Assembly: GCA_947628045.1 (NCBI GenBank)
Contig: CANQYP010000002.1
Location: 1 to 61,114, forward strand
DNA from: an uncultured Lachnospiraceae bacterium
GTDB lineage: Bacteria > Bacillota > Clostridia > Lachnospirales > Lachnospiraceae
Length of the DNA: 61,114 bases
Reading direction: 5' to 3'
This document shows, in pieces, positions 11,500 through 45,339 of this stretch. A program made the position numbers and the translations under genes. Below the pieces are notes generated by a model, which had not been told where the DNA came from, did not search any database, and saw only the letters and a program-made list of their open reading frames with translations. Every line of letters starts with the position of its first letter. Within the stretch, counting starts at the first letter, position 1.

Positions 11500-11528
11500 T
11501 TGACAACCAACCTGCGCGACCATATAAT
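11500..11528 (+). promoter_or_regulatory. Perfect consensus promoter of the alkyltransferase-domain gene
   Basis: TTGACA (11500-11505), 17-bp spacer, TATAAT (11523-11528). It is divergent from the ilvE promoter. Confidence 0.85.
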
Positions 11529-40495: not shown

Positions 40496-40524
40496 TTGAT
40501 ATTATCCGGCGGATAAGATATACT
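40496..40524 (+). promoter_or_regulatory. Promoter with palindromic operator for the MNT/HEPN pair
   Basis: TTGATA (40496-40501), 17-bp spacer, TATACT (40519-40524). The spacer contains TTATCCGGCGGATAA (40502-40516), a perfect 6-bp-arm palindrome positioned to block RNA polymerase, as expected for autoregulation. Confidence 0.65.
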
Positions 40525-40569
40525 TTCTGTAAGAAGATATGAAAAATGATATATTAGAGGAAGAGCGTT

Positions 40570-40956
40570 ATGTGCAAGCTGGTTGAAGTAATGACAAATG
40601 ACGGAAGAGTTTGCAGGGTTGCCGACATAAAAAAGGATTATATCGTGAACATCATTCGTAATGCGAATGTATGCCCTGCAATAGACGAGATTATTCTCTT
40701 TGGCTCTGCAATCGAGGAACGGTGTACAGAGGAGTCAGATATCGATCTTGCGATTATGGGTAAGAAATCCAGAACACAGATCCTTACATCGAAGTCATAC
40801 AGAGATTTTGCCAGAAAGATATATCAATTTGGGAAATTTCAAAATTATGATCTGCTTTATTTTAGAAATGATAGGAAGATAAAGGACCATATTTTTGGTG
40901 ATATCAGCCGGGGAGAGGTTATCTATCGCAAGGAAGGGGAAGAGAATGGCAAATAG
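40570..40956 (+). CDS. MNT-type minimal nucleotidyltransferase (antitoxin)
   Basis: 128 residues. The nucleotidyltransferase core GSAIEERCTEESDIDLAI fits the GSx10DxD pattern exactly, as in MntA antitoxins that AMPylate their HEPN partner. A basic C-terminal half follows (FARKIYQFGKFQNYDLLYFR). GAGGAAGAG precedes the ATG. The 3' end overlaps the HEPN gene by 11 bases. The region is AT-rich compared with the MurE-like gene before it, suggesting transfer. Function as an antitoxin is inferred from the pairing. Confidence 0.87.
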   Translation: MCKLVEVMTNDGRVCRVADIKKDYIVNIIRNANVCPAIDEIILFGSAIEERCTEESDIDLAIMGKKSRTQILTSKSYRDFARKIYQFGKFQNYDLLYFRNDRKIKDHIFGDISRGEVIYRKEGEENGK

Positions 40957-41350
40957 CATATCGAAGGGATTGATTTATGCAGACATTTTGACAGCCAGTC
41001 AGGCGTTGAACACATACAAAGAGAATCCAAAATGGAAAGATATAAAAAATATATGTGCGTATCACTTGCAGCAAGCGGCAGAAAAATTGATTAAGTCGCA
41101 GATATACAACTCGGGTTTTGAATACGATAATCGAGAGCTATATACGCACGATATAGCTGCCCTGCTTTCCTACATAGAAATAAATCAAATATCGGTTGAA
41201 ATTCCAAAGTTGATCGTGCAAAATAGTCATGTCATTACTTCGTGGGAAGCCGGCAGCAGATATGATATGCATTTTTCAATTCGTGTAGATACGCTGGAAA
41301 AACATTTGCAGATTATCAATCAATGGTACGAGTCTGTTTACAAAATTTAA
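40946..41350 (+). CDS. HEPN-domain protein (toxin partner of the MNT protein)
   Basis: 134 residues, all-helical. The HEPN hallmark ICAYHLQQAAEKLIKSQIY is clear. The C-terminal RNase motif region reads SWEAGSRYDMHFSI, which gives R-x3-H rather than the usual R-x4-6-H and lacks the tyrosine of the RX4HXY motif that MntA modifies in HepT. The protein may be a divergent or inactive RNase, or be controlled differently. ATG 40946 overlaps the MNT gene by 11 bases, with GGGAAGAGA upstream; an ATG/GTG further upstream lies deep inside the MNT gene. Confidence 0.83.
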   Translation: MANSISKGLIYADILTASQALNTYKENPKWKDIKNICAYHLQQAAEKLIKSQIYNSGFEYDNRELYTHDIAALLSYIEINQISVEIPKLIVQNSHVITSWEAGSRYDMHFSIRVDTLEKHLQIINQWYESVYKI

Positions 41351-41386
41351 GGAAGGAAACATGTAGATAAGAAAGAGGTAGGACAT

Positions 41387-41968
41387 ATGATCAAGGATCT
41401 GGTTAGACAAAACAGAAGTTACCGCGGCTATGATGAGAGCCGCCGGGTGACGGAGGAGGAGCTGCGCGAGTTGGTGGATTGCGCGAGACTCACCGCGTCG
41501 AGCGTGAACATGCAGCCGCTGAAATATTATCTGGCGTGGGAGAAGAAAGAGGTGGATCGAATCCAGGCGTTGACCGCATGGGCGAGAGGGCTGCCGGAAA
41601 TGACGCTGCCGCACGAGGGCATGCGTCCGACGGCGTTCATCGTGATCTGCCAGGACAAAAACATTCAGGAGTCGCTGGCGCGTTTCCAGAAGGACGTCGG
41701 GATCGCGGCACAGACAATGCTGCTTGCGGCGGTCGAGATGGGGCTTGGCGGCTGCATGATCGGGAATTTCCGAGCGGAGTCTGTGCAGCAGGAGTTGGGG
41801 CTTGCGGAAAATCTGGCTCCGCTTTTGATCGTCGCGATCGGCAAACCGGCGGAAAAGATCGTACTGACGGAGGTGGGCGAGGGCGAGTCTGTCGCCTACT
41901 ACCGGGACGAGAACGACGTCCACTATGTGCCGAAACGTAGGCTGGAGGATGTTATCCTGGAGCATTGA
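41387..41968 (+). CDS. Nitroreductase-family FMN oxidoreductase
   Basis: 193 residues. The FMN-binding opening VRQNRSYRGYDESR, ARLTASSVNMQPLKYY, the AAQTMLLAAVEMGLGGCMIG block and the C-terminal IVAIGKPAEK are typical. It reduces nitro- or quinone-type compounds with NAD(P)H; the physiological substrate is unknown. It starts 36 bp after the HEPN gene but is GC-rich like the core, so it is probably an old neighbour rather than part of the MNT/HEPN unit. AAAGAGGTAGG precedes the ATG. Confidence 0.9.
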   Translation: MIKDLVRQNRSYRGYDESRRVTEEELRELVDCARLTASSVNMQPLKYYLAWEKKEVDRIQALTAWARGLPEMTLPHEGMRPTAFIVICQDKNIQESLARFQKDVGIAAQTMLLAAVEMGLGGCMIGNFRAESVQQELGLAENLAPLLIVAIGKPAEKIVLTEVGEGESVAYYRDENDVHYVPKRRLEDVILEH

Positions 41969-41993
41969 GAGATAGAGAGCAGGAAAGGATTGA

Positions 41994-42022
41994 TTGACAA
42001 GCCCCCAAGGCGTTGTTACAAT
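41994..42022 (+). promoter_or_regulatory. Rightward consensus promoter of the small-peptide locus
   Basis: TTGACA (41994-41999), 17-bp spacer, TACAAT (42017-42022). The predicted RNA begins near the hairpin GCCCTTAAAAGGGC (42029-42042), which would protect its 5' end. Confidence 0.85.
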
Positions 42023-42075
42023 AAAGGTGCCCTTAAAAGGGCGGAGGCACTGTAAAGCGGCAGGCGGTTGGCTAA

Positions 42076-42097
42076 TATCTCCCGAAAGGGGGTGAGG
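42076..42097 (+). promoter_or_regulatory. Hairpin sequestering the Shine-Dalgarno of the small ORF
   Basis: CTCCC, GAAA, GGGGG: a 5-bp stem (one U-G) closed by a GNRA-type tetraloop. The GGGGGTGAGG ribosome site (42088-42097) forms its 3' arm, 3 bases before ATG 42101. Confidence 0.6.
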
Positions 42098-42100
42098 CTT

Positions 42101-42175
42101 ATGCGAATTACATTACATATCGGTAGATTTACCGTTACGATAATTGTAAAGAGCAACGACCGCCAGTGCAAGTGA
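42101..42175 (+). CDS. 24-residue hydrophobic/basic peptide, candidate type I toxin or signal peptide
   Basis: ATG 42101 to TGA 42173-42175. The peptide begins MRITLHIGRFTVTIIVKS and ends with a short polar, basic tail. The centre is hydrophobic and beta-branched, with arginine, histidine and lysine at the edges, as in small membrane-active peptides. The ribosome site is strong but folded into a hairpin. Convergent consensus promoters flank the ORF, and a hairpin terminator begins inside its last codons. No family is recognised. Toxin function is inference from architecture; a leader or regulatory peptide is possible. Confidence 0.6.
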   Translation: MRITLHIGRFTVTIIVKSNDRQCK

Positions 42176-42185
42176 CGGTCGTTTT
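42155..42185. terminator. Terminator overlapping the end of the small ORF, usable from both strands
   Basis: AACGACCG (42155-42162) pairs with CGGTCGTT (42176-42183), ending TTTTA on the + strand. On the - strand the stem is followed by GCTCTTTAC. Confidence 0.75.
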
Positions 42186-42240
42186 AGCATATAAAATGAT
42201 CTGATCGAGTCAACCGTTTGTCACAGTGCCTCTTTCTGTC
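42186..42240 (-). ncRNA. Putative antisense RNA from the leftward promoter
   Basis: A transcript starting near 42237 on the - strand would run to the shared terminator (about 42150) and overlap the 3' end of the small-ORF mRNA by roughly 35 nt. It begins with GAGGCACTGT (42232-42223), a word also present in the 5' leader of the sense RNA (42044-42053). No ORF is seen in it. Confidence 0.5.
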
Positions 42241-42243
42241 TTT

Positions 42244-42272
42244 ATTATATGCATAAGGGTGAGAAATGTCAA
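42244..42272 (-). promoter_or_regulatory. Leftward perfect consensus promoter
   Basis: On the - strand: TTGACA (42272-42267), 17-bp spacer, TATAAT (42249-42244). No protein gene is served by it before the small-peptide locus. Confidence 0.85.
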
Positions 42273-42333
42273 CTAAAGAAAAATGGTTGATGGAGTATGT
42301 GCCTTCCGATGAAGACCAGAAATTATAAGAAAT

Positions 42334-42359
42334 ACGACCGCCGTTTCACCGGCGGTCGT
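42334..42359. terminator. Hairpin downstream of the RCC1-repeat gene
   Basis: ACGACCGCC (42334-42342) pairs exactly with GGCGGTCGT (42351-42359). On the - strand it is followed by ATTTCTT, so it most likely ends the RCC1-repeat transcript. Its arms resemble those of the small-ORF terminator (ACGACCG). Confidence 0.65.
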
Positions 42360-42386
42360 GTTGACAAATCTCGCTTGATTATTTGA

Positions 42387-44315
42387 TTATTTGATCCGTA
42401 TGCGCAGTACGGATTTCTTTTTACTTCCGTCCGTTGCCATAGCGGTAATCTTGACGGTCTTTCCTTTTCCGGCTTTCAGCGCTTTTACCTTTCCGCTCTT
42501 ACTCACGGTCGCGTAGTCGGGGTTGCTGCTGGTGTATACGAGCGACTTGTTGGCGCCGCCGGTAGCCGCCACCTTTGTTTTCAGTTTCATCGACTTTCCT
42601 GCTTTCAGGCTGCCTTTGCCGCTCAGGGAGACCTTCTTCACCACGCCCTTCATGATACGGATCTGGTATACCGCCGATTTCCCGCTGCCGTCGTTCGCGG
42701 TTGCCGTGATGGTGACCGTTTTGCCCGCGCCCGCCGCCTTCGTTGTGACGACGCCATTGGCGTTTACGGTCGCATAGCGTTTGTTGCTGCTCGACCAGGA
42801 CAGGCTCTTGTCGCTGGCATTTTCCGGAAGTACGGTCGCCTCCAGGGCAACCTTTTTCCCTTTGGCAATCTTCGCGGATACGGCAGAGAGCTTGATGGAA
42901 GAGACCGAAACCGCTTGCGCGGTGCCTGATCCAACGTTTCCGCCTGTCTGCCCTTGCGCTGTCTGCCCCTGGGTGGTCTGCTCCTGTGACGTTTGCCCCT
43001 GCGACGTCTGTCCCTGGTTCCCGCTGCTGTCAGAACTACCTCCCGATGATGAGTCTGGTTCCTGGGCGGACGGCTCCGGTATTTTTTCCCATACCGCGGA
43101 CACGGTCAGGTCCTTTGTGACACGGTCAAAAGCTCCGTTCCAGGACAGCGTATAACCGGTCTTTGTCAATGACGGCGCTGTGGCTGCCCCGCCGTCCGGC
43201 ACTTCTTCTATACTTACAGTCTTCGCCCCGTCGACAAAGGTCACGAGCCAGAAGGTCTTGAACTCCTTCTTTTCGGGGACGTTATGACCGTATTCTCCCC
43301 AGGAATACACGGCCTTATCCTTCTTCAGGATTACGCCACTCCACCCGTCCAGATCGACCTGCAGGACGCTGTCCATAAGCTTTACCGGTTTATATTCTCC
43401 TATGCCGAAAGAACCCGTGCCGAGCTGTCCCGAATCGTTCCTGCCCCAGATATACAGGGTTCCGTCCGCTGTGACCGCTGCGCCGTTGGAGTGTCCCATG
43501 TCTGCCTGTACAACATTCGACATGATCTGCACCGGTTTTGTCTGGTTATCTATACTACCGTTTCCCAACTCTCCGTAATAACCTGCTCCCCAGGTCCATA
43601 AAGTGCCGTCATTTTTCAGTGCCATCGAACTTCTCCAGCCCATGGAGATCTGCTTGACGCCCTCCATGATTTGAACCGGTTTTGGCTGATCGGTCGTATT
43701 GCCGTTTCCAATCTGCCCGTATTCATTTTGTCCCCAGGTCCACAGGGTGCCGTCCGTTTTCAGCGCCGCTCCGTGGAAACAGCCGAGCGATACTGACGCC
43801 ACATCAGTCATGATCTCGGTCGGTATCGGCTGATCGGACGAAAACAGGCAGCTGTCGTTGCAGCCCCATACCAGCAGTTTTCCGTCCGTTGTCACCACGG
43901 CGGACTGGTCGTAGCCGAGACTGACCTGTTTCACGTGGTCGAGCACCTTCTTTGGGGTACTGCATTCTGATCCCACAGCGCAGGCGCTGGCGATCTGCCC
44001 GTACTCATTGCTGCCCCACATCCACAGGCTGCCGTCCTGTTTCAGCGCGGCGCTGTGTAACAGACCAAGGCTCACCTGTGCCACCCCGTCAAGGATCTTG
44101 ACCGGATTGTCCCGCCTTTCGACGGAATCATTTCCCAGCTCCCCGCTGACGTTCTTTCCCCAGCTCCAAAGAGAGCCGTTCTCATCTACCGCCGCGTAGT
44201 GTTGATTTCCCGTGGCGACCTGCATCTGCACGCCCGCCGCATGGACGATACAGCCGCTCATCGCCAGCAGAAACAGCGCGCTGATCGACGCAGCCATTTT
44301 CTTGTAAAACTTCAT
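42387..44315 (-). CDS. Secreted RCC1-repeat / bacterial Ig-like (Big_2) protein
   Basis: 642 residues. The signal sequence SISALFLLAMSGCIVHAAG contains a lipobox-like SGC, so it may be a lipoprotein. Seven or so RCC1 repeats follow (LKTDGTLWTWGQNEYGQIGN and similar, ~35-345), forming a beta-propeller. Next come an InlB-type beta-grasp repeat (VTFVDGAKTVSIEEV, TKTGYTLSWNG), a Gln/Thr/Ser linker with TSQGQ/TTQGQ/TAQGQ repeats, and two Big_2 domains (~470-640) ending in basic, lysine-rich sequence. The ATG at 44315 has GGGAGG upstream on the - strand. It is likely a surface-exposed interaction protein; the ligand is unknown. Confidence 0.88.
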   Translation of the reverse strand: MKFYKKMAASISALFLLAMSGCIVHAAGVQMQVATGNQHYAAVDENGSLWSWGKNVSGELGNDSVERRDNPVKILDGVAQVSLGLLHSAALKQDGSLWMWGSNEYGQIASACAVGSECSTPKKVLDHVKQVSLGYDQSAVVTTDGKLLVWGCNDSCLFSSDQPIPTEIMTDVASVSLGCFHGAALKTDGTLWTWGQNEYGQIGNGNTTDQPKPVQIMEGVKQISMGWRSSMALKNDGTLWTWGAGYYGELGNGSIDNQTKPVQIMSNVVQADMGHSNGAAVTADGTLYIWGRNDSGQLGTGSFGIGEYKPVKLMDSVLQVDLDGWSGVILKKDKAVYSWGEYGHNVPEKKEFKTFWLVTFVDGAKTVSIEEVPDGGAATAPSLTKTGYTLSWNGAFDRVTKDLTVSAVWEKIPEPSAQEPDSSSGGSSDSSGNQGQTSQGQTSQEQTTQGQTAQGQTGGNVGSGTAQAVSVSSIKLSAVSAKIAKGKKVALEATVLPENASDKSLSWSSSNKRYATVNANGVVTTKAAGAGKTVTITATANDGSGKSAVYQIRIMKGVVKKVSLSGKGSLKAGKSMKLKTKVAATGGANKSLVYTSSNPDYATVSKSGKVKALKAGKGKTVKITAMATDGSKKKSVLRIRIK

Positions 44316-44493
44316 AATCCTGTGACCTCCCTGCATTTCGCGCCGCGAACCGGGCGCTTTTTATTGATTAAGTTTAATATACCTGATTGCCCTGATCTGC
44401 GCAAGGTTTCTTTTATTTTTTTCCAGCCCGCACACATTTCCGTTCGCCGTAATAGGATAATACAGACGATATTCTGCGAGGGTGACAGGAGAG

Positions 44494-45339
44494 ATGAAGG
44501 AGATCCTTGCGGGGCTGCTGCTCCCGTTTCTGGGGACATCGCTCGGCGCGGCGTGTGTGTTTTTTCTGAAAAGAGAGCTGGGGCAGAAACTGCAAAAGGC
44601 GCTGCTCGGCTTTGCCGCGGGCGTCATGGTCGCGTCTTCCGTGTGGTCGCTGCTGATCCCGGCGCTCGAGCTGTCCGGGGGTATGGGACGGCTGGCGTTC
44701 CTGCCGGCGATCGGCGGGCTGGCATTCAGCTTTCTGTTTTTGCTGGCGCTGGATCGATATTTTCCGCAGCTGTATCACGGGGACATTCAAGAAGAAACAT
44801 GCTGTGTGATAAAAGATGGAGACGCTGCGCAGTTATGCCCGGAGCGCGGCGGAGATGAAAAAACACAGAGCGGGCGGAAACGGACGAATCTTCTCATGCT
44901 CGCTGTGACGCTGCACAATATCCCCGAGGGCATGGCGGTCGGCGCCGTCTTCTCCGGGCTGCTTGCGGCGCGCGCGGGGATCACGGTTGCCGGAGCGTTT
45001 GCGCTGTCGCTGGGCATCGCGATCCAGAATTTTCCGGAGGGTGCGATCATCAGCCTGCCGCTGGCGGGAGAGGGACGCATGAACCGCTGGGGCGCGTTTG
45101 GCATGGGAGTCGTCTCTGGCGTGGTGGAGCCGGTCGCCGGTGCGGCTATGATCGTGCTGTCGCATTATATTCAGCCGTTTTTGCCCGGTTTCCTTGCGTT
45201 TGCGGCGGGGGCGATGTTGTATGTGGTCGTGGAGGAGCTGATCCCGGAGATCGCGCAGGGGAGTTCCGATAAGCTGGGGACGATCGGGTTTGCGCTCGGT
45301 TTCATGGTGATGATGGCGCTGGACGTCGCGTTTGGCTGA
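44494..45339 (+). CDS. ZIP-family divalent metal transporter
   Basis: 281 residues, about eight membrane segments. The two metal-binding helices carry TLHNIPEGMAVG (TM4) and IQNFPEGAIISLPL (TM5), the ZIP/GufA signatures. A hydrophilic loop (~95-130) contains CC and acidic residues. It takes up zinc or related metals into the cytoplasm. The start is not certain: ATG 44494 has AGGAGAG very close upstream, and GTG 44482 is in frame four codons earlier. It is divergent from the RCC1-repeat gene, with ~180 bp between. Confidence 0.9.
   Translation: MKEILAGLLLPFLGTSLGAACVFFLKRELGQKLQKALLGFAAGVMVASSVWSLLIPALELSGGMGRLAFLPAIGGLAFSFLFLLALDRYFPQLYHGDIQEETCCVIKDGDAAQLCPERGGDEKTQSGRKRTNLLMLAVTLHNIPEGMAVGAVFSGLLAARAGITVAGAFALSLGIAIQNFPEGAIISLPLAGEGRMNRWGAFGMGVVSGVVEPVAGAAMIVLSHYIQPFLPGFLAFAAGAMLYVVVEELIPEIAQGSSDKLGTIGFALGFMVMMALDVAFG

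Follow-up and report, generated by a model that had tools for sequence, protein, structure and literature searches.

A compact two-promoter locus of a Lachnospiraceae bacterium as a probable type I toxin-antitoxin cassette with a Hol_Tox-like RNA design and an undescribed peptide

What is the role of a short DNA segment in which a 24-codon open reading frame (ORF) lies between two promoters that face each other? Such a locus was examined in a 61,114-nucleotide stretch of DNA from an uncultured Lachnospiraceae bacterium, the whole of which is termed the window. The sense promoter, TTGACA-17-TACAAT (41994-42022, plus strand), scores 11/12, has TG ahead of its -10 element and predicts a transcription start at about 42029. 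The antisense promoter, TTGACA-17-TATAAT (42272-42244, minus strand), scores 12/12, with a start predicted at about 42237. In the region 40500-43500, 12 promoter-like sites were detected, compared to 2.9 ± 1.9 in 50 shuffles, while exact TTGACA-N16-18-TATAAT sites number only two in the whole window and none in 100 shuffles. Besides the one belonging to the element, the second exact site of the window is located at 11500-11528 (plus strand), and there are no others.

The predicted sense mRNA starts with a short hairpin, GCCCTTAAAAGGGC (42029-42042, plus strand), which is missing from some relatives. It is followed by the 5' arm of a proposed fold-back (42043-42072, plus strand), comprised of the inverted repeat elements A1, GAGGCACTGT (42044-42053), and B1, GGCGGTTGGC (42063-42072). 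Next to it is the hairpin CTCCC-GAAA-GGGGGTGAGG (42079-42097, plus strand), within which the stem CCCGAAAGGGGG masks the Shine-Dalgarno (SD) sequence; this leader is common to unrelated peptides. The 3' arm (42209-42232, plus strand) contains B2', GTCAACCG, and A2', ACAGTGCCTC; read on the minus strand, it corresponds to the 5' portion of the predicted antisense RNA. As GAGGCACTGT and ACAGTGCCTC make up a perfect 10-bp inverted repeat, both predicted RNAs carry GAGGCACUGU near their 5' ends. Inverted pairs of at least 9 nt within 41990-42280 are four: A (GAGGCACTGT), B (CGGTTGGCT), the two -10 regions, and the hairpin at the ORF end. The first-pass annotation had described the facing promoters, the 24-codon ORF, the hairpin opening the sense leader, the SD sequence hidden in a GAAA-loop stem, and the sequence common to both 5' ends, all of which were recovered at the positions given here.

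The ORF, MRITLHIGRFTVTIIVKSNDRQCK (42101-42175, plus strand; 24 codons plus stop), encodes the proposed toxin peptide. Its coding nature was assessed on 77 related loci of the class termed here beta, using codons ahead of the hairpin (59 distinct peptides and 72 distinct core sequences; 1500 random pairs for each frame, 1071-1146 of them usable). The dN/dS ratio is 0.17 in frame, as opposed to 1.44 and 1.85 in the shifted frames, the in-frame value being somewhat low because the beta class is defined by text rules applied to the peptide. Another estimate, 0.086, comes from a set chosen still more by peptide. By this measure, the ORF peptide of about 24-30 residues is under purifying selection and truly coding. 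Residues T4, H6, I7, T13, and R21 are invariant in an alignment of 39 peptides. In addition, codons 5-7 (TTA CAT ATC) of beta ORFs vary less in their third positions than most other codons do, a hint of one more RNA-level constraint near the ORF start.

The maximum 15-residue Kyte-Doolittle value is on average 1.36 in beta peptides (65 loci) compared to 3.02 in Hol_Tox-like and 2.85 in KAC peptides, two other classes introduced below, and no membrane segment is predicted in beta-class peptides by this scale. Alternation of polar and apolar residues, together with a glycine turn, suggests two beta strands. The beta hydrophobic moment clearly favours beta structure in two of five variants (p 0.012 and 0.014; 0.11-0.33 in the others), so this structure is one that we infer. 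Database searches disclosed no Pfam or NCBIfam match for the window peptide and no PDB match for a consensus relative. PADLOC and PHROGs gave no match of note with the window peptide or beta relatives; among beta peptides, the best match in PHROGs is that of one variant to an entry of unknown function, at 0.011. Two Rfam matches of the locus are both far below the cut-off, and the phage collection yielded one match each at E 3 and 9. The searches of Pfam, NCBIfam, and PHROGs are thus in agreement with the earlier remark that the peptide falls outside recognised families. Among the open-licence PubMed Central papers listed by literature searches, none was recognised as describing the peptide or the shared RNA chassis; the element may be present as an unnamed entry in the supplements of a catalogue of candidate gut RNAs (PMC8040213).

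The leader pattern GGCGGTTRGCYN{4,20}GGGGGTGAGGY matched 112 genome-contig and 18 viral-contig stretches, some of them by chance, as for example in Streptomyces. Combined with the window and relatives found earlier, 132 distinct leader matches were sorted by our own text rules into 70 beta, 16 Hol_Tox-like, 16 KAC-type, and 30 other loci, the last including chance matches (Streptomyces, proteobacteria) and truncated copies. The KAC class comprises membrane peptides that terminate in KAC or a similar sequence. The best sense promoter score is 10-12/12 in 51 of 67 beta-class loci having at least 110 nt upstream (window included). The antisense promoter scores 12/12 in 56 of 67 beta (window included), 11 of 14 Hol_Tox-like, and 13 of 16 KAC loci scored, bearing in mind that the 101 pattern-found loci were pre-filtered for an antisense promoter score of at least 10. 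Ten typed peptides were scanned against Pfam: two, both of class 2, pass the Hol_Tox cut-off (2.9e-8 and 3e-5), a third is below it (0.032), and seven, including two beta and one KAC peptide, have no match. In NCBIfam, all matches of these peptides are below cut-off and come from class 2; they concern ComI, discussed below, and the type I toxin PepG1, to which another class-2 peptide shows weak similarity (0.00047). When the leader was searched for with a covariance model, the loci found extended the collection by divergent beta peptides (MRLTFHVGIFTITVIVRRTKMNRHSGK is one example) and by further membrane peptides (for instance, MEYVYIMIFIIALIALIVSIKK). In seven of them (L201, L202, L204, L205, and L222-L224), the leader is longer: as judged by eye, an additional region resembling a hairpin separates the B element from the start codon of the membrane peptide.

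Orientation of the RNA structures was addressed through imperfect pairs: a G.U pair in one strand is an A.C mismatch in the other, so that such pairs reveal which RNA is selected. The hairpin at the ORF end, designated T (42155-42183), is proposed as an intrinsic terminator of the antisense RNA. On the minus strand, the sequence after T is GCTCTTTACAATT, complementary to the Lys-Ser codons and to those preceding them. The antisense version of T is the more stable one in 64/65 beta, 12/14 Hol_Tox-like, 16/16 KAC, and 5/6 other loci. The antisense:sense ratio of G.U pairs is 126:8 in beta, 31:9 in Hol_Tox-like, 21:7 in KAC, and 7:6 in other loci, these counts being alignment cells and not independent events (in beta, they come from about two inherited columns, one of which is the stop codon). 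Among the 10 nt after T, U residues number 4.55 (beta), 4.50 (Hol_Tox-like), and 4.19 (KAC) on the antisense strand, against 3.37, 2.57, and 4.00 on the sense strand, nearly equal in KAC loci. In beta and Hol_Tox-like loci, the antisense U-tract is read from lysine codons near the peptide C-terminus (by eye). Since stability, G.U bias, and U-tract all favour the antisense strand, T looks like an antisense terminator, least clearly in the KAC class. A terminator usable from both strands had been proposed previously; the hairpin is indeed present, but its use in two directions is doubtful because of this preference.

The antisense RNA predicted from its promoter and T is about 90 nt long (42148-42237, minus strand), carries a 5' hairpin and the terminator hairpin, and is the proposed antitoxin. 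Its predicted gene, with a promoter and a terminator of its own, is placed so that it overlaps the putative toxin gene. The first-pass annotation regarded this transcript as free of ORFs, which holds in so far as none ends before the predicted terminator, but a 25-codon frame (42190-42113, minus strand) starts inside the RNA and runs past it.

Pairing between the two arms was studied in the sense mRNA. In the window, the duplex of the 5' arm with the 3' arm has a predicted energy of -46.7 kcal/mol. The fold of the full-length sense RNA has an energy of -81.7, compared to -56.6 ± 4.6 in 100 approximately dinucleotide-preserving shuffles. Because earlier scorings covered 23/40 and 15/18 model-found loci picked by hand for a clear ORF, 56 of all 58 model-found loci fetched were scored instead (L221 and L245 are too short). 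In 47 of the 56, the leader pairs with the 3' region by more than 2.5 sd over shuffled 3' regions. The fold-back energy is better in the sense strand in 54/56 loci, but 8 of the 9 loci whose fold-back does not exceed 2.5 sd show the same preference, and controls favour sense too (base-shuffled segments 60:39, non-cognate same-class pairs 81:19); energy compared by strand is therefore a biased measure. This bias is removed when the arms are aligned in a strand-neutral way, as they were for 49 of the 58 loci (left out were L198, L220, L221, L224-L227, L245, and L261). Transitions that give G.U pairs in sense number 193, and those that do so in antisense 76, with G+T accounting for 51.6% of identical positions. 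By locus, the G.U bias is towards sense in 43, towards antisense in 3, and tied in 3, although these loci are related and do not make up 49 independent tests. Furthermore, both arms co-vary in the divergent loci L195, L199, L203, L206, L208, L212, L213, L215, and L216.

Pattern-found loci were folded as a separate set, which includes 101 of the 132 distinct leader matches (peptide of 15-40 aa, enough 3' sequence, antisense promoter score of at least 10), 96 of them being used for A-element matching. Matching of A elements between the two RNAs reaches a score of at least 9 in 72/96 loci versus 0/96 when shuffled, and in 9/96 with a partner from another class. In the A element of this set alone, the strand bias is 28:15 (p 0.066); that of the B element is mostly forced by the search pattern. 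Taken as predicted structures, the A/B inverted repeats appear to suit the sense mRNA, the two ends of which they would bring together by 5'-3' pairing, on the assumption that sense transcription reads through T. In predicted folds, the SD hairpin is mostly paired in full-length and truncated RNA alike, and its openness in the window is 0.41 with the 3' arm versus 0.22 without it. As the hairpin is no more open without the 3' arm, the folds do not support a release of the SD on 3' truncation. Pairing of the sense leader with the T arm, seen in single folds, found no support either: the full-length RNA pairs its leader with the 3' arm, and L213 and L214 break the T-arm pairing (by eye).

The fold-back was also sought in Hol_Tox loci chosen by the Pfam model alone, without reference to the leader; 149 genomes of the phylum gave 19 matches in 12 genomes, 17 of them over the cut-off. 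A fold-back of more than 2.4 sd beyond mononucleotide shuffles was detected in 10 of the 19 and was not in 9. The energy is better in sense in 12 and in antisense in 7, sense being favoured in 9 of the 10 fold-back loci. The predicted fold-back is thus common to many, although not all, Hol_Tox matches, so the cassette is best seen as an RNA module of Hol_Tox type that carries a different peptide. In predicted RNA layout, Hol_Tox (PF16935), a putative holin-like toxin, is the nearest known relative, with which the element shares the SD-hairpin leader, the opposing antisense promoter, and the 5'-3' fold-back. It differs in that the window peptide and two beta variants have no Hol_Tox match and that no membrane segment is predicted in peptides of the beta class.

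Our preferred reading, to which we assign a probability of roughly 0.7, is that the element would be a small dispersing type I toxin-antitoxin cassette of Hol_Tox-like RNA design, in which an undescribed family of peptides, possibly of beta structure, has taken the place of the toxin. Toxicity of the peptide is deduced from the shared chassis, and Hol_Tox itself is only a 'putative' toxin name. A point against it is the lack of a membrane segment in the peptide, in which it departs from membrane type I toxins. This lack, and that of a toxin family match for beta peptides, would also suit a non-toxic peptide that serves as a small regulator or signal and whose mRNA is under antisense control, a new ORF having entered a Hol_Tox chassis. 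A resemblance of two class-2 peptides to ComI, which NCBIfam names after competence inhibition, points the same way (0.0042 and 0.0077, both below cut-off). We consider a regulator unlikely, since the chassis otherwise holds Hol_Tox and other toxin-like membrane peptides, and since tandem, sporadic, and flank-independent spread is typical of toxin-antitoxin cassettes.

The arrangement also recalls par of pAD1, which encodes Fst. According to the description in PMC7472228, par has convergent promoters, a small ORF, an SD stem-loop, and a hairpin at the shared 3' end, all of which have counterparts in the element. A par/Fst-type module would have one bidirectional terminator for both of its convergent RNAs, and these would pair by way of direct repeats that cover the beginning of the toxin gene, such as DRa and DRb in the same source. 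The element has inverted repeats in their place. Within 41990-42280, the number of direct-repeat families of at least 9 nt is zero, and the direct-repeat reading was rejected for this reason; inverted repeats make the two 5' ends alike and not complementary. In addition, T is strand-biased towards antisense, and the peptide has no hydrophobic helix, unlike Fst. A module of this type is accordingly quite improbable, and the logic shared with Fst/par that the first-pass annotation had assumed does not apply, the inverted repeats acting, as predicted, in a sense 5'-3' fold-back.

Other known systems resemble parts of the Hol_Tox-like cassette. Predicted pairing of the toxin-mRNA leader with the 3' end likens it to hok/Sok and aapA/IsoA, by their descriptions (for aapA, PMC6733600). 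In aapA, as described there, the 3' end traps the SD sequence, whereas the element has a hairpin of its own for the SD and its fold-back arm lies upstream. As in txpA/RatA and bsrG/SR4 of Bacillus subtilis, the predicted antisense RNA would overlap the toxin mRNA at its 3' end; the overlaps in those two systems are given as about 75 and 120 nt in PMC4147584. TxpA is set apart by its length, described in this source as 59 residues and thus greater than that of the element's peptide. Convergent, overlapping toxin and antisense genes are described in Clostridia for type I modules of C. difficile (CD2517.1-RCd8 and others; PMC6563280), but these modules encode longer membrane toxins (PMC6563280; PMC7699646), described in the first of these sources as having 34-53 residues and a predicted membrane segment. 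One holin-like toxin gene of C. acetobutylicum is mentioned in PMC9045289.

A DNA search of 98 related genomes, own genome included, revealed strong matches (E 1e-14 or better) in seven other genomes of the same genus. Two of these genomes have tandem pairs 350 bp apart, and two further pairs appeared in the leader search of family genomes. One same-genus copy (L040, 26-421, minus strand; L098, near 350, minus strand) has its peptide ORF broken by an insert of about 120-130 bp in which inverted repeats abound. In a BLASTN comparison of 17 loci, one of which (L183) is the window's own, the core was found in all 16 other-genome loci and the 3-kb flanks of the window in none of them. The covariance model detected the leader in 30/299 family genomes at E 1e-3 and in 9/391 class and 16/398 phylum genomes at 1e-4; all three counts include the own genome. 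Positive family genomes have 1-3 leader matches, while one genome outside the class, G973, has 11, seven of which (L245-L251) were fetched and carry divergent beta-like peptides or traces of them. Leaders with beta peptides occur in Anaerotruncus colihominis DSM 17241, Gemmiger formicilis, and Clostridium porci. At the site examined in the plasmid collection (Vescimonas fastidiosa), no gene is annotated, in a gene table that is incomplete.

By these comparisons, the leader, the two facing promoters, and the small ORF form a unit of about 280-290 bp that is real and sporadically spread in gut Clostridia. The homologues named at the outset as support, with conserved ORF and promoters and with variable flanks, are present across relatives, where tandem copies occur as well; the relatives lie in other genomes, and the own genome has one copy. 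A MITE-like mobile repeat with inward promoters in inverted ends, its ORF and RNAs being by-products, could be suspected from unit ends near TTGACA and TGTCAA, inverted repeats, variable flanks, and the 11 leader matches in G973, but is highly improbable and was rejected on coding and promoter conservation, given purifying selection at the codon level, strand-polarised pairing, only 1-3 leader matches in each positive family genome, and no target-site duplication seen by eye in the window locus and relatives.

Under the toxin-antitoxin reading, a possible course of events can be outlined. The antisense RNA of about 90 nt would end at T, while the toxin mRNA would read through T, fold its 5' end onto its 3' end, and stay silent and stable, for which a parallel is described in aapA (PMC6733600). 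Being complementary to the last nine or so codons and the 3' UTR, the antisense RNA could pair with the toxin mRNA and lead to its decay or silencing; destabilisation or silencing by antisense is described for txpA/RatA (PMC4147584). Upon loss of the cassette or a drop in antisense supply, surviving mRNA might be trimmed or opened, and the peptide would be made. Having taken the place of a Hol_Tox-type peptide, it would then inhibit growth and represent a new kind of inhibitor, perhaps with beta structure.

More tentatively, and with somewhat less than an even chance, a single antisense-controlled fold-back chassis would hold interchangeable small toxins across Clostridia and beyond, the peptide family of the element being a type I toxin of a non-helical, amphipathic beta-strand or hairpin type. 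RalR and SymE, two cytosolic type I toxins, are set apart in a review as a group of their own, and a peptide of about 25 residues that is under coding selection, non-helical, and housed in a Hol_Tox chassis would belong to neither of the toxin groups of that review. Its presence in this chassis shows that the RNA control part can be retained when the peptide is exchanged.

Genomic surroundings of the element were inspected using the nitroreductase gene on its left, present in 22 of 28 other same-genus genomes. In the ten loci taken from these 22, the element does not follow this gene (blastn of the core at 1e-3), and the leader search at those sites gave only one weak 16-bit match, about 0.9 kb downstream in L238. 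In L235, L238, L239, and L241, the nitroreductase gene is followed, within about 160 bp, by a gene resembling the ZIP transporter gene of the window (by eye). In the window, the ZIP transporter gene is at 44482-45339, and the element and an RCC1-repeat gene (42387-44336, minus strand) are interposed between the two. Adjacency of nitroreductase and ZIP genes elsewhere thus indicates that this segment was either gained in the window or lost in the other genomes.

Two further observations concern the vicinity of the element. A nucleotidyltransferase gene (Polbeta, PF18765) and a HEPN gene (PF05168) form a pair at 40570-41350 (plus strand) with the make-up of an MNT-HEPN toxin-antitoxin pair. About 640 bp, a stretch that includes the nitroreductase gene, separate the end of this pair from the element downstream. 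On the other side, a hairpin, ACGACCGCCG...CGGCGGTCGT (42334-42359), has a U-rich tail on the minus strand and is probably the terminator of the RCC1/Big_2 gene at 42387-44336; its stem resembles the ORF-end hairpin of the element (AACGACCGCC).
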